Shown in pieces: positions 3,890 through 61,418 of a stretch of 64,000 nt of DNA. Positions within the stretch are counted from its first letter, which is position 1; each line of letters starts with the position of its first letter. The stretch is from the NCBI GenBank assembly GCA_011959105.1, contig BLLU01000251.1, positions 1 to 64,000 of the forward strand, read 5' to 3'. Both the position numbers and the translations under genes were made by a program. Under the pieces are notes generated by a model. That model searched no databases and was not told the origin of the DNA. It saw only the letters and a list, made by a program, of their open reading frames with translations. Source of the stretch: Lachnospiraceae bacterium (GTDB lineage: Bacteria > Bacillota > Clostridia > Lachnospirales > Lachnospiraceae).

Positions 3890-3983
3890 AATTCATATCC
3901 CGCATCTGCCCCACAGTCCCCTGATCCAGGGCCTGCGCTGCAGCCTCCGGTCAGGAATCGGCACTATGTCCCGGAAGATGCCG
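3890..3983 (-). repeat. Degenerate copy of the GCGGAACTCTAAAT palindromic element
   Basis: Read on the minus strand, the segment opens with GCATCTTCC and closes with a partly complementary strand and ATGCGGGATATGAAT. This matches the layout of the better-preserved elements at 14815, 29450 and 60567: outer stem, inner GC-rich hairpin, then ATGCGG plus a short A/T tail. The tail has diverged from GGAACTCTAAAT. It ends about 20 bases before the kdgK start and points the same way as the gene. Confidence 0.5.
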
Positions 3984-4035
3984 TCATACAACCTTTTTCC
4001 TGTGGGATATATGGTCGTGGTTTACCAGTAAACTC

Positions 4036-4080: not shown

Positions 4081-7000
4081 TTACTCCTCCGTTTCGTGCG
4101 CCCGGCAGCACGTTTCCTTCAGGAGATTTTCATCCACCAGCGCCTTCATGGCCTCCAGAAGCTGCTCCGTATCCTCCAGCAGGGCCTGAGCGTCCTTCTC
4201 AATAACATTGCTCTTCTTGTATTTATAGGTAAAAAAGGGATTGCCGTAAGCCGTGAAACGCAGCTTGTCCCCATAGGGCTTCATAAAGCCGGGGATCCGC
4301 TCCGGGGCAATGGGCGCATCGGGCCGGAATGTGAAGAGAATCCGCTCGTTTTTTCCCTTCAGTTCCGTCATATAAAGCCTGTGGGCCGCCACCCGGATCA
4401 GAGCGATCCGCAGCAGGTTTTCCACGGATACGGGTACTTCCCCGAAGCGGTCCAGCAGCTCGTCCCGCATATCGTCCCGCTCCCGGACGTTTTCAATGCC
4501 TGCAATACGCTTGTAAATATCCAGTTTCTGCACCTCGTTGACAATATATTCCGGCGGAATAAACGCATCCACGTCCAGATCCACAATGGTGGCAAAATCC
4601 GCCGCCGTGGTAATTCCCTTTCTGCGCTGCACCGCCTCGTTCAGCATCTTGCAGTACAGGTCATAGCCCACCGCTTCCATATGGCCATGCTGCCGCATAC
4701 CCAGCAGATTGCCCGCTCCCCGAATCTCCAGGTCCCGCATGGCGATCTTGAAGCCGCTTCCCAGATCCGTGAACTCCCGGATGGCCGCCAGCCTTTTTTC
4801 CGCCACTTCCTTCAGCATCTTATCCCGCTTGTACATCAGAAAGGCATAGGCCGTCCTGTTGGAACGTCCCACCCGCCCCCGGAGCTGATAAAGCTGAGAC
4901 AGACCCAGATTGTCCGAATCATGGATGATCATGGTGTTCACATTGGAAATGTCCAGTCCTGTCTCGATGATGGTGGTGGATACCAACACGTCGATTTCCC
5001 CGGCGATAAAGTCCACCATGATCCGCTCCAGTTCATGCTCCTTCATCTGCCCGTGGGCATAGGCCACCGTGGCCTCCGGCACCAGCGCCGCAATGCCCGA
5101 TGCGATATCCGCGATATTGTTCACCCGGTTATATACATAGAATACCTGGCCCCCCCGGCCCATCTCCCGGACAATGGCCTCCCGGACCATCTCCTCGTTA
5201 TACTCGCAGACAAAAGTCTGTATGGGCAGCCGCTCGTCCGGCGCTTCCTCCAGCACGCTCATGTCCCGGATGCCGATGAGGCTCATGTGGAGGGTGCGGG
5301 GAATGGGGGTAGCTGTCAGGGTCAGCACGTCCACATTCTCTTTCAGCTTCTTGATCTTTTCCTTGTGTGCCACGCCGAAGCGCTGTTCCTCGTCGATAAT
5401 CAGCAGCCCCAGATCCTTGAATTTCACATCTTCCGACAATACCCGGTGGGTACCGATCACAATGTCCACCAGGCCCTTTTGCAGATCCGCCACGGACTTC
5501 CTGATCTCCCCCGGAGTGCGGAACCGGGACAGCAGTTCCACCCGCACCGGAAAGTCTTTCATTCGCTGGGCAAAGGTATTGTAATGCTGTTGAGCCAGGA
5601 TGGTGGTGGGCACCAGATATACCACCTGCTTGCCCTCCTGTACGGCCTTGAATGCCGCCCGGATGGCAATCTCCGTCTTGCCGTACCCCACATCACCGCA
5701 GATCAGCCGGTCCATGATTCTGCCGCTCTCCATGTCCGCCTTGGTATCGGCGATGGCTGCCAACTGATCCTCTGTCTCCTCAAAGGGAAACATCTCCTCA
5801 AACTCCCGCTGCCACACTGTATCCTTGCCGTACTGATATCCCTCACTCTGCTGCCGCAGGGCGTAGAGTTCCACCAGATCCCCTGCCACCTGGTCCACGG
5901 CGGTACGCACTCTGGACTTGGTGCGATCCCACTCCTTGGTGCCCAGCTTGTTCAGCTTGGGCCTTCCCCCTTCCGCCGCGGCATATTTCTGAATTACATC
6001 CAGGCCGGTGGCCAGCACATAGAGATTGCCGCCGTCACGGTACTCGATCTTCATATAGTCCTTGACCACTTTTTCCACTTCCACCTTTTCAATGCCCCGG
6101 TAGATGCCCAGCCCGTGGGTCTCGTGCACCACGTAGTCCCCCACCTTCAGTTCGTGGAAATCATTGATTTTCTGCCCCTGGTACAGCTTTTTTTTCTTTT
6201 TCTTCTTCTCCGCGCCGAAAATATCGGACTCGGCGATCACCACATATTTAATCAGGGGATATTCAAATCCTTTGTTCACATGGCCGTAGTAAGTCACCAC
6301 CTCCCCCGGCTGCACCTCCCTAAAGGGATCTTCCGTGTAGACGGCTGTGAGTTCATACTCCCGCAGGTCCTGGGCCAGACGCCTGGCCCGGGTGCGGGAA
6401 CCGGACAAAAGCAGGACCCGGTATCCCTGCCTGCGGTAACGGATCAGATCTTTTACCAGAGCCTCGAAACTGTTGTTGTAGGGCGACACGTTGCGGGCGG
6501 ACATCATGACCCGGGAGACGGGCCGCAGCAGGCTGTTCTTCCCGTCCATGGTGGCCAGGGAAACCACCGGGGATTTCAGGCAGCGGGCCATAACCTGCTC
6601 CCTGCCGTACAGGATGTCCATCTGCCCCGGCAATACATAACCCTTCTGGGCCCGCTGTCCCATGCTCTCACGAAACTCCATTTCCACCGCGTCCGCATGT
6701 TCGGCAATCCGCCCCGGCTCATCCAGGAAGAACACCAGCCCTGTGCCCCCCCTTTGCCGGGACTCTTCCGCCCGCTGCAGCAGTTCCGGCAAAGTCAGGG
6801 TGTCCTGGTAAAAATAGCGGATATAACTTTCCAGATTGGCTTTGGACTGGAACTCCAGCAGCTGTTCCTTAAGTTCCGCCACCTGGGTACTGACCCGATG
6901 AGCCGCCTCCGTCTCAAAGGCCTCCCGCAGCTTCTTCTCCTGGGCCTTGGCATCCTCCTGAATCCGGCTGACGCCCTCCTCCAGGCGCTGCCTGTCCATA

Positions 7001-7677
7001 ACGAATTCCGCCGCCGGATAAACGGTGACACTCTCCAGCTTTTCAATGGAGCGCTGACTCAGCACGTCAAAGGAACGAATGGACTCCACCTGGTCCCCCC
7101 ACAGTTCGATGCGGTAAGGATTTTCTTCCGTCAGATCATAGATATCCACGATACCGCCCCGAACGGAGAACTGTCCGCTGCTTTCCACCTGGGCCGCTTT
7201 CTCATAGCCCATGTCCACCAGACGCCTGGACAGCGCCGCCTCATTCAGGGTCCCGCCGTTCTCCACTCTCAGAATATCCTTTTCCGGGTCCCATTGCACC
7301 TGGGGCGTCATCAATGCCGCAAAGGTCGTAACCAGCGTCAGGGGCCTGCCCTCCGCAATCCGCCGCAGCGCCCGCACCCTCTCCCGGGTCAACTGGTTGC
7401 CGTGGATATCCGCCTGGAAAAAGATCAGGTCCTTGGCGGGATAGAGAAGAACGTTTCTATCATAGAAACGGTATTCCTCATAGAGTTCCCTGGCCTTTAA
7501 ATCACTGTAAGTAACGATGACCCTATAACGCAGGCCATCGGACAATCCGTAAATCATATGCAGTTTCTGAGAATCCACGCAGCCGGTGAGCGCCACCGGA
7601 GTCCTACCCTTGCATATGTCTTCCCTGATCTGCTCATACTCCGCCAGATCCCGCAAAGGAGCCAATAATGCCTGCAT
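4081..7677 (-). CDS. mfd: Transcription-repair coupling factor Mfd
   Basis: A 1198-residue SF2 translocase that removes stalled RNA polymerase at DNA lesions and recruits UvrA. The N-terminal UvrB-like domains are followed by the CarD-type RNA polymerase-interaction domain (GDYVVHETHGLGIY). Next come the helicase motors with Walker A GDVGYGKTE, DEEQ box (IIDEEQRFG) and SAT-like TATPIPRTL. The C-terminal TRCF domain completes the usual length. A run of seven lysines lies just before the CarD-like part, which is common in clostridial Mfd. The ATG at 7677 has GGAGGTGA upstream. It follows pth, as in many Firmicutes (pth-mfd), separated by palindromic elements whose tail abuts the mfd Shine-Dalgarno. 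Confidence 0.98.
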   Translation of the reverse strand: MQALLAPLRDLAEYEQIREDICKGRTPVALTGCVDSQKLHMIYGLSDGLRYRVIVTYSDLKARELYEEYRFYDRNVLLYPAKDLIFFQADIHGNQLTRERVRALRRIAEGRPLTLVTTFAALMTPQVQWDPEKDILRVENGGTLNEAALSRRLVDMGYEKAAQVESSGQFSVRGGIVDIYDLTEENPYRIELWGDQVESIRSFDVLSQRSIEKLESVTVYPAAEFVMDRQRLEEGVSRIQEDAKAQEKKLREAFETEAAHRVSTQVAELKEQLLEFQSKANLESYIRYFYQDTLTLPELLQRAEESRQRGGTGLVFFLDEPGRIAEHADAVEMEFRESMGQRAQKGYVLPGQMDILYGREQVMARCLKSPVVSLATMDGKNSLLRPVSRVMMSARNVSPYNNSFEALVKDLIRYRRQGYRVLLLSGSRTRARRLAQDLREYELTAVYTEDPFREVQPGEVVTYYGHVNKGFEYPLIKYVVIAESDIFGAEKKKKKKKLYQGQKINDFHELKVGDYVVHETHGLGIYRGIEKVEVEKVVKDYMKIEYRDGGNLYVLATGLDVIQKYAAAEGGRPKLNKLGTKEWDRTKSRVRTAVDQVAGDLVELYALRQQSEGYQYGKDTVWQREFEEMFPFEETEDQLAAIADTKADMESGRIMDRLICGDVGYGKTEIAIRAAFKAVQEGKQVVYLVPTTILAQQHYNTFAQRMKDFPVRVELLSRFRTPGEIRKSVADLQKGLVDIVIGTHRVLSEDVKFKDLGLLIIDEEQRFGVAHKEKIKKLKENVDVLTLTATPIPRTLHMSLIGIRDMSVLEEAPDERLPIQTFVCEYNEEMVREAIVREMGRGGQVFYVYNRVNNIADIASGIAALVPEATVAYAHGQMKEHELERIMVDFIAGEIDVLVSTTIIETGLDISNVNTMIIHDSDNLGLSQLYQLRGRVGRSNRTAYAFLMYKRDKMLKEVAEKRLAAIREFTDLGSGFKIAMRDLEIRGAGNLLGMRQHGHMEAVGYDLYCKMLNEAVQRRKGITTAADFATIVDLDVDAFIPPEYIVNEVQKLDIYKRIAGIENVRERDDMRDELLDRFGEVPVSVENLLRIALIRVAAHRLYMTELKGKNERILFTFRPDAPIAPERIPGFMKPYGDKLRFTAYGNPFFTYKYKKSNVIEKDAQALLEDTEQLLEAMKALVDENLLKETCCRAHETEE

Positions 7678-7690
7678 CCTGTCACCTCCA

Positions 7691-7830
7691 TTTTAGTTCC
7701 GCATTTTCCCTTCCACCGCACACCCAGGGATCCTTATCCGACCGCACAGCGTCCGTATAAGGATCCGTGCGCTGTCCGGGAATATGCTGTTTTAGTTCCG
7801 CATTTTCCCTTCCACCGCACTCTCAGGGAT
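7691..7830 (-). repeat. Palindromic element between pth and mfd: one full unit plus a 3' half unit
   Basis: Minus strand. The full unit (7691-7789) opens with GCATATTCCC, contains an inner hairpin with GGATCCTTAT / ATAAGGATCC arms, and ends GGGAAAATGCGGAACTAAAA. A second 3' half (7790-7830) repeats about 30 bases nearly exactly and abuts the pth stop codon. The tail of the full unit ends directly before the mfd Shine-Dalgarno. The tail here is GGAACTAAAA rather than GGAACTCTAAAT. Confidence 0.85.
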
Positions 7831-13350: not shown

Positions 13351-14790
13351 ATGGCGAATCTGGCAATATATAAGGACGATTACATAGAATTTACCGCTAT
13401 CTCCAATTATTTCATAGACAATTATATGAAGGATGCCAACGATGCCCAGCTCAAAGTCTACCTTTATCTGGTACGGATGGTCCATGCCAACATGGCGTTT
13501 GGTGTCTCGGACATTGCGGATAAATTCAATCATACGGAAAAGGACATACTGCGCGCCCTGCGCTATTGGGAAAAGCAGAATCTGTTATCCCTGGAGTTTG
13601 ACGCGGGCAAGAACCTGACAGCCATTCATCTGCGCGGGCTGGGTTCGGGCATGAACTGCGGCATTACGACTGCCGGAGGTAATAACATGGCCGGTAATTC
13701 TGCCCTGCCGGCAGGCGGCGCCATAGCAGGCGCTTCCGCTGCTTCGGCCGGCAACGGCACAGCGGCCAATGCCACGGCGGCTGGAAGCCCTGCCGGCGGG
13801 AGTCATCCTGTGGCGGCGGGTAATGACGCCTTGAGCAATCCTATGGCGATGGGCGGCGAAACCCTGGGCAATCCTATGGCGATGGGTAACGACGCCTTGG
13901 GCAATCCTATGGCAATAGACAGCAGCACCTTGGGCAATCCTATGACGATAGGCAGTGAAACCTTGGGCAATCCTGCGGCAGCAGAAGGCGGCAATACGGT
14001 GACATTTTGCCAACAGAGACAGCTTTCTCTGGCGGACATCGAGCCCGCCAGGGAGCAAATGACAGTGCCCGGAGGCGCAGGCTGGGAAGCTGCTTTGGAA
14101 GAGCCGGACCCCTATGCCAAACCCGCCTACAGCGCCGACCAGCTTCGCAGTTTCAAGGAGCAGGAAAATACGGCACAGCTTTTGTTTGTGGCCCAGGTAT
14201 ATGTGGGCAGAACTCTGACAGCATCAGATATGAAAACCATTCTGTATCTATCCGATGTGCTGCGCTTTTCCGATGACCTGATCGACTATTTGATCCAATA
14301 CTGCGTAGACAGGGGCAAAAAGGACTTCCGCTATATGGAGAAAGTAGCCGTGAGTTGGGCACAGCAGGGAATAACCACCCCAAAACAGGCCCAGAAAGCG
14401 GCTCTCAAATATGACAAGTCCGTCTACGCCATCATGAACGAACTGGGCAAGTCCTCCGCCCCCACCAACAAGGAGCTGGAATATATCAACCGCTGGACCC
14501 GGGAATACGGTTTCACCCCGGACATCATTTTTGAGGCCTGTGAGCGCACCGTGATGGCTGTGGACAAACACCGCTTCGAGTACGCGGAAGGGATTCTGAG
14601 CAGTTGGCGCAAAGAAAACGTGCGCCACAAAGCCGACATCAAGCGTGTGGATGAACAGCACCAGAAGCAGAAAAGCGCCGCGGCCAACACAGCGCCCCGC
14701 AACAGTGCCGCCGTCAGCAACAAATTCAACCAGTTTAAGCAGAACACCTACAATTTTGAGGAGTTGGAAAAGGAACTGCTCAGCAACTGA
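13351..14790 (+). CDS. DnaD-domain primosome protein with internal 11-residue repeats
   Basis: A 479-residue replication-initiation protein of the DnaD/DnaB-like (DDBH) type. Residues 1-100 form a winged-helix domain. Residues about 110-220 are a low-complexity Ala/Gly/Asn-rich linker that includes four tandem 11-residue repeats (GNPMAMG-type). A DDBH1-like domain (about 270-350) and a DDBH2-like segment (about 360-430) with YINRWTREYGF follow. The C-terminal KFNQFKQNTYNFEELEKEL is typical of clostridial DnaD proteins. It probably remodels origin DNA and cooperates with the helicase loader encoded next. The gene follows a DnaA-box cluster. A GAAGGATGG sequence serves as ribosome site. Confidence 0.88.
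   Translation: MANLAIYKDDYIEFTAISNYFIDNYMKDANDAQLKVYLYLVRMVHANMAFGVSDIADKFNHTEKDILRALRYWEKQNLLSLEFDAGKNLTAIHLRGLGSGMNCGITTAGGNNMAGNSALPAGGAIAGASAASAGNGTAANATAAGSPAGGSHPVAAGNDALSNPMAMGGETLGNPMAMGNDALGNPMAIDSSTLGNPMTIGSETLGNPAAAEGGNTVTFCQQRQLSLADIEPAREQMTVPGGAGWEAALEEPDPYAKPAYSADQLRSFKEQENTAQLLFVAQVYVGRTLTASDMKTILYLSDVLRFSDDLIDYLIQYCVDRGKKDFRYMEKVAVSWAQQGITTPKQAQKAALKYDKSVYAIMNELGKSSAPTNKELEYINRWTREYGFTPDIIFEACERTVMAVDKHRFEYAEGILSSWRKENVRHKADIKRVDEQHQKQKSAAANTAPRNSAAVSNKFNQFKQNTYNFEELEKELLSN
13834..13989 (+). repeat. In-frame 33-bp tandem repeat inside the dnaD-like gene
   Basis: Four consecutive 33-base units (13834, 13867, 13900, 13933) and a partial fifth (13966) encode an 11-residue motif with GNPMA at its core. 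A partial unit lies upstream (13816-13833). The repeat keeps frame and falls in the linker between the winged helix and the DDBH domains. Confidence 0.92.
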
Positions 14791-14814
14791 AGAAGTCGGA
14801 AAAATATTTGATTC

Positions 14815-15018
14815 GCATATTCCCGGAATGCGCTCTGCTTTCCGAATGAACGCCGGGGCGGGCATTCGGGAAGCACCCGCTGTGTGTGCATGCAGGGAAT
14901 ATGCGGAACTCTTAACAGCATATTCCCGGAATGCGCACTGCTTTCCGAATGAACGCCGGGGCGGGCATTCGGGAAGCACCCCCTGTGTGTGCATGTAGGG
15001 AATATGCGGAACTCTAAA
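14815..15018 (+). repeat. Two tandem palindromic elements between dnaD-like and dnaC-like genes
   Basis: Unit 1 (14815-14914) and unit 2 (14918-15018) are nearly identical. Each opens with GCATATTCCC and closes with the exact complement GGGAATATGC, followed by GGAACTCTTAA or GGAACTCTAAAT. Inside is a GCGCAC / GTGTGC stem, then an 11-base inner stem with CCGAATG / CATTCGG. The tail of unit 2 runs into AGGAG, the Shine-Dalgarno of the next gene. These are the best-preserved copies and define the element. Confidence 0.93.
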
Positions 15019-15032
15019 TAGGAGAAACCGCC

Positions 15033-16001
15033 GTGGCATTGACTAAGACACAATATGACAGCATAAAGCGAGGATACGAAGAACGGCAGACCCGGAATAT
15101 GCGGCTGTTGGCCCAGCGCAGACAACAGGTCTATGCACAGCTTCCGGAATACCGGGAACTGGATGCTTCCGTGGGAGCCACCTCCGTGGCCCATGCCCGC
15201 CTGCTGCTGGACGGAGACGATTCCTCACTGGCAGAATTGAAGCGGGAACTGGCGTCCAAAGCGGAACGCCGCAGGCTTCTTTTGTCCCAGGCCGGATATC
15301 CCCCCGACTATCTGGAACCTTTTTACGACTGTCCCGATTGTCTGGACACCGGCTATATCGGCAGCGAGAAATGCCACTGCTTCCGTCAGCAGGAAATCAC
15401 TCTGCTATATGAGCAATCCGGCATCCAGGAGATGATTGCCCGGGAAAATTTCGATACTCTTTCCACTGCCTATTATGAGGGGGAGGATCTGCAGCGCTTT
15501 GAAAACGCTGTTGCCATCAGCCATAAATTCGTGGATGAATTCAAAAAAAGCTATCAAAATTTACTGTTTTATGGTACAGTAGGGACAGGCAAAAGTTTTT
15601 TGTCAGGCTGTATTGCCGGAGAACTGCTGTCCCGGGGATGGGCCGTGATCTATTTCAGTGCCAGCGGGCTTTTCGAGACTCTGGCCCGGTATAGCTTTGA
15701 CACAAAGTCCAAAGAAAGTCTTTACAATTTCTGCAAGGACCTTTACAATAGTGACCTGGTGATCATTGATGACCTGGGAACGGAAGTGACCAACAGTTTT
15801 GTGACTTCCCAGCTGTTTTCCCTGCTCAATGAGCGGCACCTGCGGCAGAAAGCCACTATCATCTCCACCAATCTGAATCTGGAGGAGATGCGAGACCGCT
15901 ATTCCGACCGCATTTTTTCCCGCATCACCAGCAATTACTCCCTATGCAAACTCACCGGCCCGGATATCCGCATGTACAAAAAAAGGTTTCCGGGAAAGTA
16001 A
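15033..16001 (+). CDS. DnaC-like AAA+ helicase loader
   Basis: A 322-residue AAA+ ATPase of the DnaC/DnaI/IstB family that loads replicative helicase onto DNA. The N-terminal coiled region is followed by a Cys cluster (CPDC at 100-103, CHC at 114-116), likely zinc-binding. Walker A is GTVGTGKS (181-188), Walker B is LVIIDDLGTE, and a sensor STNL follows. It starts with GTG at 15033, chosen because AGGAG lies eight bases upstream. It follows the DnaD-like gene, so the two probably act together at the primosome; the matching helicase dnaB is at 49898. The tail of a palindromic element abuts its ribosome site. Confidence 0.92.
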   Translation: MALTKTQYDSIKRGYEERQTRNMRLLAQRRQQVYAQLPEYRELDASVGATSVAHARLLLDGDDSSLAELKRELASKAERRRLLLSQAGYPPDYLEPFYDCPDCLDTGYIGSEKCHCFRQQEITLLYEQSGIQEMIARENFDTLSTAYYEGEDLQRFENAVAISHKFVDEFKKSYQNLLFYGTVGTGKSFLSGCIAGELLSRGWAVIYFSASGLFETLARYSFDTKSKESLYNFCKDLYNSDLVIIDDLGTEVTNSFVTSQLFSLLNERHLRQKATIISTNLNLEEMRDRYSDRIFSRITSNYSLCKLTGPDIRMYKKRFPGK

Positions 16002-16045
16002 TGTATTCAGCCTTAAGCGGGCAGGATAACACACAGAACTTTCAA

Positions 16046-16153
16046 CAGCATGTCCTCGAAGGGGTCCACTGCCCCATACCCGGACAGCGAAGGGGCCGGA
16101 CAAGCAGCCCTGACCTGTGTAGCGGCAGAGGATATGCAGAACCGAAGATCTAA
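16046..16153 (+). repeat. Diverged palindromic element upstream of prs
   Basis: The segment starts with CAGCATGTCCTC and returns as GAGGATATGC (paired with one G-U), with inner GGGG / CCCC helices and a CCACTG / TGTG segment as in the other copies. The tail is mutated to AGAACCGAAGATCTAAA. It lies about 10 bases before the prs Shine-Dalgarno AGGAGG and points the same way as prs. Confidence 0.7.
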
Positions 16154-16175: not shown

Positions 16176-17360
16176 ATGCCAAATCGTGAAGAGAAGCGCA
16201 ACTTAGAGACCATCCCTGTGGGTTCCCTGGGCATCATCGCTCTGGAGGGCTGTAAGGTATTGGGCGACAAGGTAGACAAGTATCTGGTAAAATGGAGGAC
16301 GGAGCGGGAACACGAGCACCGGGATTCTCTGGCTTTCGCGGGATATCAGAGAAACTCCTACCTTCTGAGCACCAAAGTGCCCCGTTTTGGTTCCGGAGAA
16401 GCCAAGGGCATGATTTTGGAATCCGTCCGGGGCTGCGATTTGTATCTGCTGGTAGATGTCTGCAACTATAGCCTTACCTATTCTCTATGCGGGCATGAAA
16501 ACCATATGTCCCCCGATGACCACTATCAGGATTTGAAACGTATTATCGCCGCTGTGGGGGGCAAAGCCCGCCGGATCACTGTGATCATGCCCTATCTGTA
16601 CGAGAGCCGCCAGCACAAGAGGACGGCACGGGAATCTCTGGACTGTGCTCTGGCCCTGCAGGAACTTGTGGGTATGGGAGTAGATAACATCATCACATTT
16701 GACGCTCACGATCCCCGGGTGCAGAATGCCATCCCTCTGCACGGGTTTGAGACTGTACAGCCCGCTTATCAATTTATCAAGGGCCTATTGTGCCATGTAA
16801 AAGATCTGCAGATTGACAATGGTCATATGATGGTCATCAGTCCGGACGAGGGCGGCATGAAGCGGGCCATTTATATCGCCAATGTGCTGGGATTGGACAT
16901 GGGCATGTTTTACAAACGCCGGGATTACACCCAGGTGGTAAATGGACGCAATCCCATTGTGGCCCATGAATTCCTGGGCTCCAGTGTAGAGGGCAAGGAT
17001 GTGATCATCATTGACGATATGATCTCCTCCGGCGACAGCATTTTGGAAACCGCTGCCGCCCTGAAGCAGCGCCAGGCAGGCAAGATTTTTGTGTTCTCCA
17101 CCTTCGGTCTGTTTACAGGAGGACTGGAAAAGTTCGATAAGGCCCATGAAAGCGGCCTGATTACCAAAATTCTTACCACTAACCTGATCTACCAGACTCC
17201 GGAACTCCTGGAACGGGAATGGTATATTAATTGTGATATGAGTAAGTATATCGCTTACATCATTGATACCCTGAACCATGATTCCTCTATCAGCGATTTG
17301 CTGAATCCCAACGAGAGGATCCAGAGCATTGTATCCAGATACCGCAATGGGGAACTGTAA
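16176..17360 (+). CDS. prs: Ribose-phosphate pyrophosphokinase (long form)
   Basis: A 394-residue PRPP synthetase that transfers pyrophosphate from ATP to ribose-5-phosphate. The PRPP-binding motif VIIIDDMISSGDS is clear, and KRRDYTQVVNGR fits the flexible catalytic loop. It is about 75 residues longer than the standard 315-320-residue enzyme. The extra length comes mainly from an N-terminal segment with GSLGIIALEGCKVLGDKV and insertions. This long clade is a known variant in clostridia; whether it differs in regulation is not visible. ATAGGAGGTATAC precedes the ATG. A strong terminator follows. Confidence 0.9.
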   Translation: MPNREEKRNLETIPVGSLGIIALEGCKVLGDKVDKYLVKWRTEREHEHRDSLAFAGYQRNSYLLSTKVPRFGSGEAKGMILESVRGCDLYLLVDVCNYSLTYSLCGHENHMSPDDHYQDLKRIIAAVGGKARRITVIMPYLYESRQHKRTARESLDCALALQELVGMGVDNIITFDAHDPRVQNAIPLHGFETVQPAYQFIKGLLCHVKDLQIDNGHMMVISPDEGGMKRAIYIANVLGLDMGMFYKRRDYTQVVNGRNPIVAHEFLGSSVEGKDVIIIDDMISSGDSILETAAALKQRQAGKIFVFSTFGLFTGGLEKFDKAHESGLITKILTTNLIYQTPELLEREWYINCDMSKYIAYIIDTLNHDSSISDLLNPNERIQSIVSRYRNGEL

Positions 17361-25839: not shown

Positions 25840-27030
25840 TCACTGCTCCAGCAAACGCGCCAGCGTGGGATATATCCCCAGCAGTTCCATGGTCTCCTGC
25901 AGCGGAGTCCCCTGATCCCGGCAGCCTTCCCGCCTTTTACGCATATGCTGTGCCCCGGCGGCGCCCTGCGTCCCGGGCTGCATCTTTACCGCCCGGATCA
26001 ACAGGTTCTTGGGGGTATGTTCCATGTCGATGAACTCCAGAATCTGGGCGTCATAACCCTGCTGCTCCAGCAATCCCGCCCTTACCGCGTCTGTGATCAG
26101 AGCAGACATGCGCTCCCGGATCAGCCCATATCGCAGTAATGGCTCCAATTCCCGGCAATGAATCTGTCTGTTTACCTCATGCTGACAACAGGGAACCGCC
26201 AGGATTACCCTGGCCCCCCAACTCACGGCTTTTTCCAACGCATAATCCGTGGCTGTATCGCAGGCGTGGAGAGATACCACCATATCCACCCTCTGGTTCT
26301 CTTCATAAGTACTGATATCTCCCACCCGAAAATGCAGATTCTCATAACCGCACTTTCCGGCCAGTTCATTGCAGCGCCGGATTACATCGGCTTTCAGGTC
26401 CAGTCCCGTAACACGGATATCCCTGCCCTGCAGCACATGAAGATAGTAATACATGGCAAAAGTCAGGTACGACTTGCCGCAGCCGAAATCTATTACATGG
26501 ATCTGCCCCTCCCCGGGCAGCTGGTCCAATATATCCTCTATAAACTCCAGATATCTGTTGATCTGGCGGAATTTGTCATATTTACTCCTGGTGATCCGGC
26601 CGTCCGGGGTCTGAACTCCCAATCCCACCAGGAAATCCACCGGACGGCCTTCCTGCAGGATATACTGCTTCTCACGGTTATGGGAGAGTTCCTTGGGAAT
26701 GTTACAGGATATCCGTCTGGTTTTGACCGTTATTTTGCCCTTCTTACTCACCAGCACAGTGGCACTCCTGTCTTTTGCCATGATCTCACACTGGCAGAAT
26801 GTACCGGCCAACAGCTTTTCTACCAGTTCACAGATTTCTCCCGCACTATGATTCTCATGAAATACCTGGGTTCCGGCATACCTTGTCCCCTGGAAGCGTA
26901 ATTCTCCCTTGAGAAGCACCGGACGAATCTTCAGCTTGTCCCCGTAAGATTTGTCCCTGCTGTTACTCAATACCGCCTGTACCAGCCCTTCATTCATCAT
27001 CTCTTTCAGCAATCCGCTTAACTCGTCCAT
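25840..27030 (-). CDS. Class I SAM-dependent methyltransferase (Methyltransf_32-like)
   Basis: A 396-residue protein. An N-terminal ~150 residues of unknown fold precede a Rossmann methyltransferase domain. Motif I is VIDFGCGKSYLTFAMYYYL, the acidic post-I residue is in TGLDLKADV, and HACDTATDYAL follows motif II. It resembles family members predicted to act on RNA or protein, but no substrate is established. A Cys-His element PCCQHEVNRQ is conserved in the family. The ATG at 27030 follows AGGGAGAG. It sits downstream of the atp operon and a small hypothetical gene, with a degenerate palindromic element in between. Confidence 0.82.
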   Translation of the reverse strand: MDELSGLLKEMMNEGLVQAVLSNSRDKSYGDKLKIRPVLLKGELRFQGTRYAGTQVFHENHSAGEICELVEKLLAGTFCQCEIMAKDRSATVLVSKKGKITVKTRRISCNIPKELSHNREKQYILQEGRPVDFLVGLGVQTPDGRITRSKYDKFRQINRYLEFIEDILDQLPGEGQIHVIDFGCGKSYLTFAMYYYLHVLQGRDIRVTGLDLKADVIRRCNELAGKCGYENLHFRVGDISTYEENQRVDMVVSLHACDTATDYALEKAVSWGARVILAVPCCQHEVNRQIHCRELEPLLRYGLIRERMSALITDAVRAGLLEQQGYDAQILEFIDMEHTPKNLLIRAVKMQPGTQGAAGAQHMRKRREGCRDQGTPLQETMELLGIYPTLARLLEQ

Positions 27031-27048
27031 CCCCAACTCTCCCTAATT

Positions 27049-27116
27049 AGAGTTCCACAAATTTATGTCTTTAGTCCCGCAGAGCCACGAAAACGCGTGG
27101 TTCCCGTGGCCCTGCC
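27049..27116 (-). repeat. Degenerate palindromic element upstream of the methyltransferase gene
   Basis: Minus strand: an 11-base stem GCAGGGCCACG / CGTGGCTCTGC (27105-27115 and 27079-27089, one G-U) is followed by GGGACTAAAG, then TTGTGGAACTCTAAT, which matches the conserved element tail. It ends just before the Shine-Dalgarno of the methyltransferase gene. The outer stem is largely lost. Confidence 0.5.
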
Positions 27117-28042: not shown

Positions 28043-29663
<1,621 letters not shown>

Positions 29664-29674
29664 GGAGTGAAAAA

Positions 29675-30532
29675 CTATGAAATTGCCTCCGCTCCGGCTA
29701 TAATCTCTGTCAATTCCTGTGTGATAGAGCCCTGACGAGCTCTGTTGTATTTCAGCGTCAAGTCACTTATCATTTCTTCCGCATTGCTGGTAGCATTGTC
29801 CATGGCCTGCATACGCGCGCCGTTCTCGCTGGCTACGGCCTCCATCAGCCCTCCGTAGATCAGGCTGGCCACATATTTGGGGATAATCATCTCCAGAGCC
29901 TCTTCGTCGTCTGCCTCAAAGTTCATGGGCACTTCCGACTCCTCTCCTTTGATCTCCTCCCCCTGCTCTACTGGCAGGAGTTTCAACAGGGTGGGCACAT
30001 GGCTCACCGTGTTCTTAAAAGCCGTGTAGGCCAGGTAGATTTCCCCTACTTCCCCCTCTGCGTATGCCTTCAGCAATTCGCTGCACAGCAACATAGCGTC
30101 CGGGTAGGCAGGCTCTTCCGCCACATCGGACAGGTCCATCCGCACCTCGTAGCCCTCTCTGACAAAAGCATCCTTGCCCTTGCGTCCGACGGCATAGATC
30201 AGCACGTCCTTCTTGTCCCAGCCCTCATGACGGGTCACCAGCTTTACAATATTGGAATTATATCCCCCTGCCAGTCCTCTGTTGGAGGAAATCACCACCA
30301 CCGCTTTTTTGACAGTTTCGGCAGGCTGCAGATACCGATGCTGCAAATTGCCCACCCTGGCCAGTATGCGGTTAACCGTCTGATACATGCAGTTAAAATA
30401 AGCCTTGGAGTTCTCCGCACTGGCTCTGGCCCTCTGCAGCTTTACGGTAGAAACGAGTTTCATGGCCTTGGTGATCTGCTGGGTGCTCTGTATGCTCCCC
30501 TTCCGACGCTTGATATCACGCATTGATGCCAT
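29675..30532 (-). CDS. atpG: F1 ATP synthase gamma subunit
   Basis: A 285-residue rotor subunit. The start is the ATG at 30532 (MASMRDIKRRKGSIQSTQQI), with AAGAGGTAATT upstream; the frame is open further 5' but lacks a ribosome site. The N-terminal helix KAMKLVSTVKLQRA and the C-terminal helix NATSNAEEMISDLTLKYNRARQGSITQEL, parts of the central coiled coil, are intact. An acidic insertion (about residues 195-215, EEIKGEESEV) is longer than in model enzymes. Confidence 0.97.
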   Translation of the reverse strand: MASMRDIKRRKGSIQSTQQITKAMKLVSTVKLQRARASAENSKAYFNCMYQTVNRILARVGNLQHRYLQPAETVKKAVVVISSNRGLAGGYNSNIVKLVTRHEGWDKKDVLIYAVGRKGKDAFVREGYEVRMDLSDVAEEPAYPDAMLLCSELLKAYAEGEVGEIYLAYTAFKNTVSHVPTLLKLLPVEQGEEIKGEESEVPMNFEADDEEALEMIIPKYVASLIYGGLMEAVASENGARMQAMDNATSNAEEMISDLTLKYNRARQGSITQELTEIIAGAEAIS

Positions 30533-30646
30533 AATTACCTCTTTCCCGCATATCGCAGATTTATCTGCGATATTGCATAAATACGTATTCAGCATCTAAA
30601 GTCCGGCAACGGCCGGACCCCATGATGCCGCATTGCTCTCTACACA

Positions 30647-37715: not shown

Positions 37716-38345
37716 TTATTTTGTGCCGAAAATACGGTCCCCCGCATCCCCCAGGCCAGGTACAATATAACCATGGTCATTCAGCTTCTCATCCAGCGCT
37801 CCGATGTACATATCCACGTCCGGATGCTCCTTCTTCATCAGTTCCACTCCTTCCGGAGCGGCTATGATGCACATAAAATGGATATTTCTGCATCCCTTGT
37901 CCTTAAGCATCTGGATAGCCGCCACAGAGGAACCGCCGGTGGCCAACATGGGATCCACCACAAACACTTCCCTCTCTGCGCAATCTGCAGGCAGCTTGCA
38001 GTAGTATTCCACAGGTTTTAATGTCTCCGGATCCCGGTACAGGCCGATATGTCCCACCTTTGCCGCGGGAATCAGATTCAGCATCCCGTCCACCATGCCC
38101 AGGCCCGCGCGCAGGATCGGCACAATTGCCATCTTCTTGCCCCGCAATTCCTTTACCGTGGCGGAGCAGATGGGCGTCTCGATCTGTACCTCGTCCAGTT
38201 GCAGATCCCTGGTGGCCTCATAGCAGATCAACATGGCAATCTCGCTGATGGCCTGCCGGAAATCCTTTGTGCCTGTCTCCGTCCTCCGAATCAAACCGAT
38301 CTTATGCTGGATCAAGGGATGGTCCATTATTACAACTTTAGCCAT
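37716..38345 (-). CDS. upp: Uracil phosphoribosyltransferase
   Basis: A 209-residue salvage enzyme making UMP from uracil and PRPP. The PRPP loop [15 protein letters not shown], the N-terminal [13 protein letters not shown] and the C-terminal uracil-binding [17 protein letters not shown] are intact. TAGGAGGATAAATAA precedes the ATG and itself directly follows the tail of a palindromic element. Confidence 0.98.
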
Positions 38346-38359
38346 TTATTTATCCTCCT

Positions 38360-38480
38360 ATTTAGAGTTCCGCATCTCCCCTCCAAGCACAACCACTCCC
38401 TTGATATACATCCAAACGCTTCGACGTTCGGATGTATATCAGTACGCTTTCCGGGGATATGCTGTTTAGAGTTCCGCATT
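38360..38480 (-). repeat. Palindromic element between rpiB and upp
   Basis: Minus strand: the unit opens with CAGCATATCCCC (38453-38464) and closes with GGGGAGATGCGGAACTCTAAA next to the upp Shine-Dalgarno (38360-38385). An inner stem GATATACATCC / GGATGTATATC is longer than at other loci. A tail fragment GCGGAACTCTAAA (38465-38479) precedes it, just after the rpiB stop codon. Confidence 0.92.
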
Positions 38481-48994: not shown

Positions 48995-49026
48995 AGGCAT
49001 TTCAAAAAACGAAATGCCTTTTTTTC
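48995..49026. terminator. Terminator of the ferredoxin gene, overlapping the 3' end of the merR gene
   Basis: AGGCATTTC / GAAATGCCT, a nine-base stem with an A-rich loop and seven T on the plus strand. The merR stop codon (49002-49004, minus strand) lies inside it, so the same DNA codes for the last residues of the MerR protein and terminates the ferredoxin transcript. Confidence 0.9.
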
Positions 49027-49778
49027 TTGCCTGCGGCAGGCTTGGGAGGCGTTGTTTTCTCCGCTGCCTGCGCCTTCTTATCCTTCTTCTCCACTTTCCG
49101 GCGACTCTTTTTGCACAATAGCTCGTCCATCTTCCGGTAGTATTCCTCGCTGCGCTGCTGGGCCAGGCGGTCCCTCTCTTCCTCACGCTCTTCCTGGTTA
49201 CGGAATTGGTAATCCAATTCCTTAATCAGACTTTCTTTTATATTCTGACAGAGTTCGTCATTGTTCTCACGTAGTGTCTCACGAATCAACTGTTGCAGCA
49301 GCCATTGCAGGCGACGGGCCTTGTCCTCCCGGCTCTCCGCAGACAATTCCGAAGTTCTCTGCCGCATCGGCTCCGCCATCTCCCGCTGCGCTTCCATCAG
49401 GCCATCAGACTCCTCCGCACACTCCCCAGAATCCCTGACAGAGACCACTTCAATCGCCATGGACTGATCCGCATCGGTCTCCTGTGCACCTCCCAGACAG
49501 ACTGTCTCCATCCCGCCTGTCCTCTCGCGGAAGCCCTCCTGGGGCAGAACATCCAACTTTCCATCTTTCAAGATCATCTTAATTGCCTTCAACTGCAATC
49601 CCCTTTCTTTCATAGCCTTAATCTGTTTAAAGCGCTCCACGTCCTCCTGGGTATAGTACCGATGCCCCAATTCATTGCGCTTGATAGGCAGCCGCAGTTC
49701 CTCCTCCCAATAGCGCAGCACATGGCTCTCCACCCTGACCTCCTTGGCGGCGTCCGATATAAGCAAATAAGTTCCCAT
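49002..49778 (-). CDS. MerR-type HTH regulator with long charged C-terminus
   Basis: 258 residues. The N-terminal MerR helix-turn-helix (about 1-70) has LISDAAKEVRVESHVLRYWEEE and RNELGHRYYTQEDV with the wing. An acidic linker precedes a long helical stretch and a basic Lys/Pro-rich tail. No Cys-based metal site is seen. The layout resembles RacA-like or chromosome-associated MerR proteins in Firmicutes more than a metal sensor; target unknown. GAGAAAGGGGAAAACT precedes the ATG at 49778. It lies downstream of dnaB on the same strand. Confidence 0.82.
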   Translation of the reverse strand: MGTYLLISDAAKEVRVESHVLRYWEEELRLPIKRNELGHRYYTQEDVERFKQIKAMKERGLQLKAIKMILKDGKLDVLPQEGFRERTGGMETVCLGGAQETDADQSMAIEVVSVRDSGECAEESDGLMEAQREMAEPMRQRTSELSAESREDKARRLQWLLQQLIRETLRENNDELCQNIKESLIKELDYQFRNQEEREEERDRLAQQRSEEYYRKMDELLCKKSRRKVEKKDKKAQAAEKTTPPKPAAGKKKRHFVF

Positions 49779-49798
49779 AGTTTTCCCCTTTCTCATCA

Positions 49799-49845
49799 AA
49801 GTCCCGCATATTCCGATCATATGCCATTTTCAGTTCCGCATATGT
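49799..49845 (-). repeat. Truncated palindromic element between dnaB and the merR gene
   Basis: Minus strand: ATATGCGGAACTGAAAATG, then GCATATGATCGGAATATGCGGGACTTTGAT. This equals a tail fragment followed by a unit with only the outer stem GCATAT / ATATGC and a seven-base loop; the inner hairpins are gone. It points toward the merR gene. Confidence 0.65.
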
Positions 49846-60449: not shown

Positions 60450-60507
60450 AAAATGACCGAGGCAGAATAGGAGAAAGTGCTTTCCTGTACTGCCCGGTCA
60501 TTTTTTA
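60450..60507 (+). terminator. Terminator of the second glgCD operon
   Basis: AAATGACCG / CGGTCATTT and GGCAG / CTGCC helices with a one-base bulge enclose a smaller GGAGAAAG / CTTTCC hairpin. TTTTTT follows. It is a large stable terminator, and the cobB palindromic element starts only a few bases later. Confidence 0.9.
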
Positions 60508-60514
60508 AAATAAC

Positions 60515-60670
60515 GCATGGGGAGCACCCGCATCGTGTGCTTGCAGAGAAGATGCGGAACTCTAATCAGCATCTTCTCGGAAAGTACACTGCTCCACAGG
60601 CGCACACCACTGTGGGCGCATGGGGAGCACCTGCATCGTGTGCTTGCAGAGAAGATGCGGAACTCTAAAT
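60515..60670 (+). repeat. Palindromic element upstream of cobB: half unit plus full unit
   Basis: A 3' half unit (60515-60566) and a full unit (60567-60670) share about 50 nearly identical bases. The full unit opens with GCATCTTCTC (60569-60578) and closes with the exact complement GAGAAGATGC (60649-60658), then GGAACTCTAAAT. The inner stem is CCACAG / CTGTGG. The tail is followed by the cobB Shine-Dalgarno GAAAGGAAA. The outer-stem sequence differs from the 14815 copy but stays fully paired. Confidence 0.92.
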
Positions 60671-60686: not shown

Positions 60687-61418
60687 ATGTCAAAGGAATC
60701 AGATCGTTTCGTACAGATTATAAAAGACAGCCGTCACATCGTATTTTTCGGCGGCGCAGGGGTCTCCACGGAGAGCGGAATCCCCGACTTTCGCAGCGTG
60801 GACGGGCTGTATAATCAGCAGTATGACTTCCCGCCGGAAACCATATTGAGCCACAGCTTTTACCGCAAAAACCCGGAGGAGTTCTACCGTTTCTACCACA
60901 ATAAAATGCTTTTTCCCGATGCCCGCCCCAACACGGCCCATCGGATGCTGGCCCGCCTGGAGGAAGCGGGCAGGCTGGACGCCGTCATTACCCAAAACAT
61001 TGACGGCCTGCACCAGGCCGCCGGCAGCAAGAATGTCTACGAACTCCACGGCTCCGTACTCCGCAACTACTGTGAGGACTGTCATGCCTTTTACGACCTG
61101 GCCTATATAATGAAATCAAAAGATGCGCCCCGCTGTGACAAATGCGGCGGCCCGGTAAAACCGGATGTGGTGCTCTATGAGGAAGGCCTGGACCAAGACA
61201 CTGTAAACGGAGCCGTCACCGCCATCCGGCAGGCAGATGTGCTGATCATCGGAGGCACTTCCCTGGCGGTTTATCCCGCCGCCGGTCTCATCGACTATTT
61301 TCAGGGAAAGCATCTGATCGTCATAAACATGTCCCCTACTCCCAGGGACCGCTTTGCGGATCTGTGCATCCAGGAACCCATAGGCCAGGTGTTCGCCGCG
61401 CTGGAAGCAGGGCTATAG
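60687..61418 (+). CDS. cobB: NAD-dependent protein deacylase (sirtuin)
   Basis: A 243-residue sirtuin that removes acyl groups from lysine with NAD+. [17 protein letters not shown] (21-37), TQNIDGLH, the catalytic His in ELHGS, and a four-Cys zinc site (YCEDC and CDKCGG) are complete. It probably reverses lysine acetylation produced by acetyl-CoA or acetyl-phosphate, which would fit a PFL fermenter. The ATG follows AGAAAGGAAACTTCC. Its 3' end overlaps the convergent trkA by six bases. Confidence 0.96.

Follow-up and report, generated by a model that had tools for sequence, protein, structure and literature searches.

A hairpin repeat family positioned directly before Shine-Dalgarno sequences in Lachnospiraceae

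REP/RAYT and ERIC elements are dispersed palindromes that can sit inside operons, with REP and ERIC copies present in either orientation. An effect of ERIC in operons is described in the portion of PMC3049150 available to us. According to the same portion, 61 to 63% of the copies of BOX, RUP, and SPRITE, which are repeats of Streptococcus pneumoniae, lie on the leading strand, and the three are over-represented between convergent genes. MRSC-65-2 is a multicopy stem found in diverse phyla and carries a UYCCGG repeat (PMC11109978, accessible sections). The bcr1 to bcr18 repeats belong to the Bacillus cereus group, where about half of them are transcribed, e.g., as a UTR or an operon spacer (PMC3446304, accessible sections).

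The hairpin repeat family reported here is undescribed in the literature searched. The string of its tail is absent from the PMC papers searched, topical searches (with subscription papers mostly outside their reach) returned no description of the family, and the accessible part of PMC2864571 does not describe it. No Rfam family reached its gathering score in the window, by which we mean the whole 64,000-nucleotide stretch of DNA analyzed; on five of the loci Rfam gave three subthreshold matches, all to eukaryotic families. As far as the available text of PMC3049150 goes, BOX, RUP, and SPRITE are the closest described kind. They are likewise small and interspersed, have a predicted RNA fold, and show little tie to the function of their neighbors, and BOX has tandem modules, as here. 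Unlike them, when compared by description only, 79/83 arrays of the present family lie directly before a Shine-Dalgarno-like sequence and in the direction of the gene. Assignment to BOX itself was rejected, again by the description in the accessible part of PMC3049150, as boxA-boxB-boxC modules are absent and a single unit type adjoins the Shine-Dalgarno. Like MRSC-65-2 and the other mobile or repeat candidates in the available sections of PMC11109978, the family has a covarying long stem and often dozens of copies per genome; it is set apart from MRSC-65-2, by description, by matches in genomes of one family only, by its conserved tail, and by its proximity to the Shine-Dalgarno. The bcr repeats are similarly intergenic, and bcr1 to bcr3 are MITE-like, but they occur in another host group, and the accessible sections of PMC3446304 mention no fixed place before a Shine-Dalgarno, a comparison that is again one of descriptions.

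The repeat unit is a palindrome of ∼104 nt that ends with the tail GCGGAACTCTAAAT and occurs in single or tandem copies. Within the window, six loci bear seven strong model matches (≥37.7 bits), all closely followed by a gene start in the same direction; the matches begin at 14813 and 14915 (one array), 16045, and 60566 on the plus strand and at 38360, 7690, and 29451 on the minus strand. The tail alone occurs 15 times at ≤3 mismatches against 4.25 expected, a count reached by 0/100 shuffles. The array before the dnaC-like gene (15033-16001) consists of two units, as a first-pass annotation of this DNA had described. Unit 1 (14813..14914, +, 80.2 bits) is decayed at its 5′ end, and unit 2 (14915..15019, +, 100.9 bits, z −5.6) carries the tail GCGGAACTCTAAAT at 15006-15019; the Shine-Dalgarno-like AGGAGA and the GTG start of the gene follow at 15020..15035 (+). 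A decayed unit (16045..16149, +, 37.7 bits) precedes prs (16176-17360), and a better-preserved one (7690..7790, −, 78.9 bits) precedes mfd (4081-7677). Before atpD (28043-29434), an upstream tail copy (29649..29662, −) is followed by unit 1 (29550..29649, −), which was delineated from the sequence and a tandem repeat finder and has no separate model row, and by unit 2 (29451..29550, −, 65.7 bits). The unit before upp (37716-38345) lies at 38360..38465 (−, 96.9 bits, z −6.1), with an upstream tail copy at 38464..38477 (−), and the unit before the SIR2/cobB-type gene (60687-61418) lies at 60566..60670 (+, 92.5 bits), behind a partial unit with tail (60498..60567, +, 17.3 bits). NCBIfam and Pfam confirmed the products as mfd, dnaC-like (PRK06835), prs, atpD, upp, and a SIR2/CobB-type deacylase. 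All six loci that the annotation had singled out bear model matches of ≥37.7 bits. The three decayed copies that it had added fared less well. The element with the tail GTGGAACTCTAATT at 27045..27058 (−), before the Shine-Dalgarno of the open reading frame (ORF) at 25840-27036, scored 17.2 bits, and a candidate at 3891-3984 scored 18.8 bits, both weak values; the remnant at 49800..49839 (−), a tail-like sequence (49826) with a short hairpin before the MerR gene (49002-49820), had no model row. The window also contains a 33-bp tandem repeat of 5.2 copies (13805-13974), with a period divisible by three, which falls within a gene (13351-14790) carrying DnaB_2 domains.

Across 28 units, the order of parts is ACAGCAT with the first arm, a second stem of GCGCAC/GTGTGC-like sequence, an inner hairpin, the arm return, and the tail ATGCGGAACTCTAAAT. 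The tip of the inner hairpin often reads GGACGC..GCGGCC. The arms pair, yet the tail of 12 to 14 nt sits outside them on the 3′ side. An intrinsic terminator was considered and rejected: in the 28 units the hairpin is followed by GGAACUCUAAAU-like sequence and no U run. RNA folding of five window units gave z scores of −4.4 to −6.1 against 200 shuffles, none of which was as stable. In a structure-blind MAFFT alignment of the 28 units, changes on both sides were present in 23/28 pairs, and the covariation score was 0.561, compared with 0.189 (SD 0.014) for shuffled alignments and 0.068 to 0.165 for slid partners, although, with the structure taken from this very alignment, true pairing has a built-in advantage over slid pairing. 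Covariation above the controls marks the unit as a structured RNA element, and the earlier claim that the arms differ between loci yet stay paired is borne out by paired changes in the 28 units, which come from three genomes. G-U pairs outnumbered A-C pairs 32 to 13 on the MAFFT alignment when one mostly-G-U pair was omitted (P = 0.007; 45 to 14 with it) and 128 to 25 on the model-fitted alignment of the first 74/118 rows, an alignment that leans towards the model. Because a cruciform in double-stranded DNA does not make such a G-U excess, the folding molecule is RNA or one strand of DNA. Selection acts on the fold of the sense strand.

The orientation set comprised 104 model hits from the window and 80 stretches, merged into 84 arrays, of which 17 comprise two or more unit hits. 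Its rows were hand-picked (74/118 matches at ≥37.7 bits and 30/43 from a second sample), with antisense shadows, contig-end pieces, and weak or partial matches omitted. One array lies at a contig end, leaving 83 for the test, which required, within 40 nt downstream, an SD-like sequence, its start codon, and an open frame of ≥60 codons. Such a combination was present in the same direction for 79/83 arrays and on the opposite strand, counted from the 5′ end, for 1/83; the chance level was 9.9% at random positions and 9.8% at random intergenic positions. The spacing from tail to start codon was 7 to 26 nt. Among the four failures, L090 and L093 still have an SD-like sequence and a start codon downstream, L108:5422 has GGAGG and no near start, and L162:14781 has neither. 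Equal numbers in both orientations were thus not found in the sampled stretches, and two statements of the first-pass annotation, that copies point with the gene and that tails end just before its Shine-Dalgarno, describe the family accurately. That the elements always occur within operons, as it further stated, goes too far. Upstream of 77/84 arrays, a sense ORF of ≥80 codons ends within ∼255 nt, but the same is true of 335/464 (72%) long called ORFs, and a few arrays seem, from their flanking sequence, to stand directly behind a promoter-like sequence. Placement in a series of genes is therefore common but not distinguishing; what is near-invariant is the place right before the Shine-Dalgarno. 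The annotation had also taken the single orientation as an argument against transposition. As worded, that argument lacks support, since the Shine-Dalgarno is itself directional and insertion aimed at it would give one orientation; we propose that this directional site fixes the orientation.

Tail matches in the first sample totaled 84, versus 2 for the reversed pattern. Thirty-eight of them lay outside model hits, 11 with an SD-like sequence right behind and 27 without; most of the latter precede a next unit, and a few are chance-like. The stretches of the window's own genome (G000), of G040, and 20 others (14 from G021, 3 from G040, and 3 from G051) had been chosen by hits or synteny. Twenty G021 stretches chosen otherwise gave 4 model matches, only one of them above 33 bits and at a contig end, so the density of copies is not uniform.

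In the window's own genome (4.6 Mb, 307 contigs), the tail was counted 104 times at ≤2 mismatches, compared with 14 occurrences of the reversed control. A covariance model built from the 28 units (R1) had matches in 15/61 genomes of the genus, the own genome included; among the best 65 candidates, at least 65 matched in G000, at least 61 in G021, and at least 65 each in G040 and G051. A broader model built from 112 sequences (R2) had matches in 11/397 genomes of the family (11/334 genera), again including the own genome. In 392 order and 291 class genomes, R2 matched the own genome only, although these samples have low power, no other member of the family having been found in them. At most 65 (R1) and 10 or 13 (R2) candidates were scored per genome under strict filters; copy numbers are thus lower bounds, and weak carriers may be missed. 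Model matches in whole genomes lay only in the window's family, where they are patchy. An exact-pattern scan of named genomes returned at least 113 stretches, of which 80 were examined. Most carry the label Lachnospiraceae, which points to this as the window's family, and the rest are from unnamed bacteria or Clostridia and from Acetatifactor muris (one DSM 23669, with units in L203), with single metagenome-assembled genomes labeled Clostridium symbiosum, Lachnoclostridium, Merdimonas, and Ruminococcus; the Ruminococcus one gave no model match. R1 matched 61/80 of the exact-pattern loci, and many of these matches belong to a second subfamily, with the tail TGCGGAACTGGAAT. Because the exact pattern contained AGGAGG, SD adjacency at these loci is built into the search, and it was left out of the evidence. 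Phage or plasmid carriage was rejected: the 204-base stretch had no blastn match in the phage or the plasmid collection, and the one IMG/VR pattern hit (L190) showed no hairpin around the match and no model match. Units were also seen at contig ends (L095:1-98, L187:1-83, and G000:C268:14-117); the repeat probably breaks short-read assemblies.

A second hairpin repeat, unrelated to the first, has the same architecture, its hairpin being immediately followed by GGAAAGAGG and the start codon. It ends at the Shine-Dalgarno as ..GATATGCAGGAAAGAGG plus start. Variants lie before atpG in the window (∼30530-30600, −), and further copies lie at L101:2838, L106:924, and L337 to L348. An exact 16-mer of this family was counted 23 times in G040, 15 times in G051, and 4 times in G021 and was absent from the other 58/61 genomes, G000 included; controls gave 0. 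The sharing of one niche by two families suggests a site that is especially permissive, is targeted, or is one where a hairpin is useful.

Thirty downstream proteins were scanned and proved diverse, two being without any match. They include mfd, dnaC-like, prs, atpD, upp, SIR2, nifS, and argJ products along with glycosidases, ETF alpha, a peptide release factor, and a sigma factor, and inspection of the 30 revealed no common function. A riboswitch or ribosomal leader is disfavored on account of these inconsistent functions. An effect on ribosome access was considered in two forms. Exposure of the Shine-Dalgarno by the hairpin was rejected because folding predicts the opposite: accessibility was 0.485 with the element and 0.574 with a shuffled one (72 arrays, Wilcoxon P = 0.0003), i.e., slightly lower. 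Some single folds do show GGAG bound by CUCU in the tail; sequestration by the tail was nonetheless rejected, as matched tail-SD pairs were no better than re-dealt ones (232/300 re-dealt sets as low). A Shine-Dalgarno switch thus finds no support in these folding models. The structured mRNA element suggested by the first-pass annotation stands as far as the single orientation to genes, the covarying sense-strand fold, and the likely leader position are concerned, whereas two simple predictions of translation control, an exposed Shine-Dalgarno and matched tail-SD pairing, failed. Insulation or processing of the mRNA by the element is possible.

Sister species offer filled and empty versions of the same sites. 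The corresponding sequence in the atpG-atpD spacer is CTAGAAAGG.. in G021 and CTAGAA-[element]-AGAAAGG.. in G051; two units stand there in G000 and a shorter element in G040. Model rows in this spacer exist in G000, G040, and G051 only, with none in G021 or in the 24 other loci in which both atpD and its upstream flank are present; the two model rows of G021 at the atpD locus belong to the next locus downstream. AtpD shares 98% (G021), 98% (G040), and 96% (G051) identity with the G000 protein. Upstream of the dnaC-like gene, the G040 sequence is CAGCAACTAAGGAGAA, as opposed to the array before AGGAGAA in G000. At both loci, the Shine-Dalgarno belongs to the gene itself, with the element directly before it. 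Two side observations concern atpD. In the more distant G059, a strong unit (L149:1361-1470, −, 87.8 bits) lies beside the 3′ end of atpD, and the operon there thus carries the element at another gene border. In many genus members without the element (among L124 to L146), a short palindrome rich in GC immediately precedes the atpD Shine-Dalgarno.

Thirty query arrays merged into 25 comparable loci. By eye, an intact unit was present in another species at four of them (atpD, upp, mfd, and the 27045 locus), a remnant or tail only was present at three, and no recognizable copy was present at 18. The mfd site of G040 is occupied by a diverged unit, and the 27045 locus has intact units in G021 and G051. 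Where loci are shared by two or three species, the units have strongly diverged in sequence and kept their pairing. Within genomes, median identity is 93% between tandem neighbors and 67% between dispersed copies. The most similar dispersed pair, in G040 (L117:11944 and L105:12523), is 96% identical, and the next pair is 90% identical. A faint trace of an older tail seems to be present at the L117 site in G000 and G021, so this pair could instead reflect gene conversion between old copies. At single empty or filled sites, either gain or loss is possible from the sequences; presence and absence across species, together with the 96% pair, would favor spread. Spacers are too diverged for an exact insertion junction to be fixed from the sister species, and no clean, resolvable junction or target duplication was found at the compared sites.

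These comparisons bear on a host-beneficial cis-acting RNA, i.e., a processing site or 5′-end protector that would set the lifetime or translation of one operon gene through an endoribonuclease or RNA-binding protein, with copies kept where they are useful. Such an RNA would explain the covarying sense-strand structure, the conserved tip motif and tail, and the place directly before the Shine-Dalgarno. It would also account for shared loci with diverged yet paired units and for the occurrence in sister genomes of another, unrelated hairpin family built in the same way. It does not, however, sit easily with the want of a functional theme among the 30 downstream proteins, with the 18/25 orthologous loci lacking a recognizable copy in the compared species, or with a Shine-Dalgarno that is predicted to be slightly less accessible and has no matched pairing with the tail. 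We regard this explanation as possible but, on balance, doubtful.

If the family spreads, the identity of its mover becomes relevant. Elements moved by Y1/HUH transposases, such as REP/RAYT or IS200/IS605 derivatives, insert with fixed polarity at short targets, and a hairpin selected as single-stranded DNA and moved in this way would match the palindromic, dispersed character of the repeat and the folding of one strand. Y1_Tnp (PF01797), however, had no match in 7/12 carriers (G000, G021, G040, G051 [61% complete], G041, G073, and G340), compared with a match in 5/12, and it was present in 11/18 noncarriers. One of the genomes without a match is G040, whose dispersed copies are the most alike. 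REP/RAYT was rejected as the likely mover on this count, and the family differs from REP/REPIN-RAYT both in this respect and in its orientation (79/83 sense, 1/83 antisense). Movement by a Y1/HUH enzyme therefore appears very improbable.

Another candidate is a MITE of the usual sort, belonging to a DDE-type insertion sequence, in which the arms would be terminal inverted repeats and the tail a target duplication. The unit is of MITE size, and an extra tail copy stands 5′ of the first arm in 42/71 arrays (≥9/12 bases, versus 0.2% of random places), which gives a tail-like direct repeat on both sides. These flanking repeats look like the tail and not like a target. Because the tail is conserved across unrelated loci and is missing from well-aligned empty sites, it is probably not a copied target, which, together with the fixed orientation, speaks against a MITE. 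Several 5′ flanks in G040 (L102:2870, 6592, and 18610; L108:8301 and 15230; L116:12757; and L118:11099) contain a small hairpin of the GAGGATNNNNATCCTC type within the upstream tail copy. A scan of 1.58 Mb for a longer element with the same ends, i.e., an autonomous partner, returned only one weak, chance-like match. We consider a MITE origin unlikely. Taken together, the PF01797 search and the scan for ends revealed no transposase or other partner.

The explanation that we favor, at a probability of about 0.5, is an interspersed repeat that forms a structured 5′ leader, is placed or kept before the Shine-Dalgarno, and is spread by a trans-acting factor. Such a factor would recognize the hairpin and/or the tail, and copies would spread either as DNA or through an RNA copy. 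Placement may be directed to the Shine-Dalgarno or be tolerated only there. The element would then be transcribed within the leader, leaving the Shine-Dalgarno and start codon intact, and would serve as a spacer between the gene and the sequence upstream of it, either neutral or mildly useful. Mobility is likely, and a role for the host is possible. Several points count against the favored explanation: the searches above turned up neither a partner such as a transposase nor a clean junction or target duplication, single empty or filled sites may reflect gain or loss, the 96% pair could stem from gene conversion, the several shared loci with diverged but paired units suggest selection in place, and a mobile DNA element need not show RNA-like pairing.

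A bolder variant, to which we assign little credence, is a bacterial SINE-like element, in which a structured RNA would spread via an RNA copy and target Shine-Dalgarno regions, with two families in the niche. If this were true, ribosome-binding sites would be the element's genomic niche.

None of the described bacterial interspersed repeats compared here is bound to a single orientation or a short signal, whereas the present repeat precedes the Shine-Dalgarno of dozens of genes in each genome, among them atpD, mfd, prs, and upp. How a noncoding element could be directed to translation start regions thereby becomes a testable question, as does whether leader hairpins reset expression inside the operons of a common gut family. 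The filled, empty, and tandem alleles of sister species constitute a natural experiment on the effect of a hairpin before the Shine-Dalgarno.
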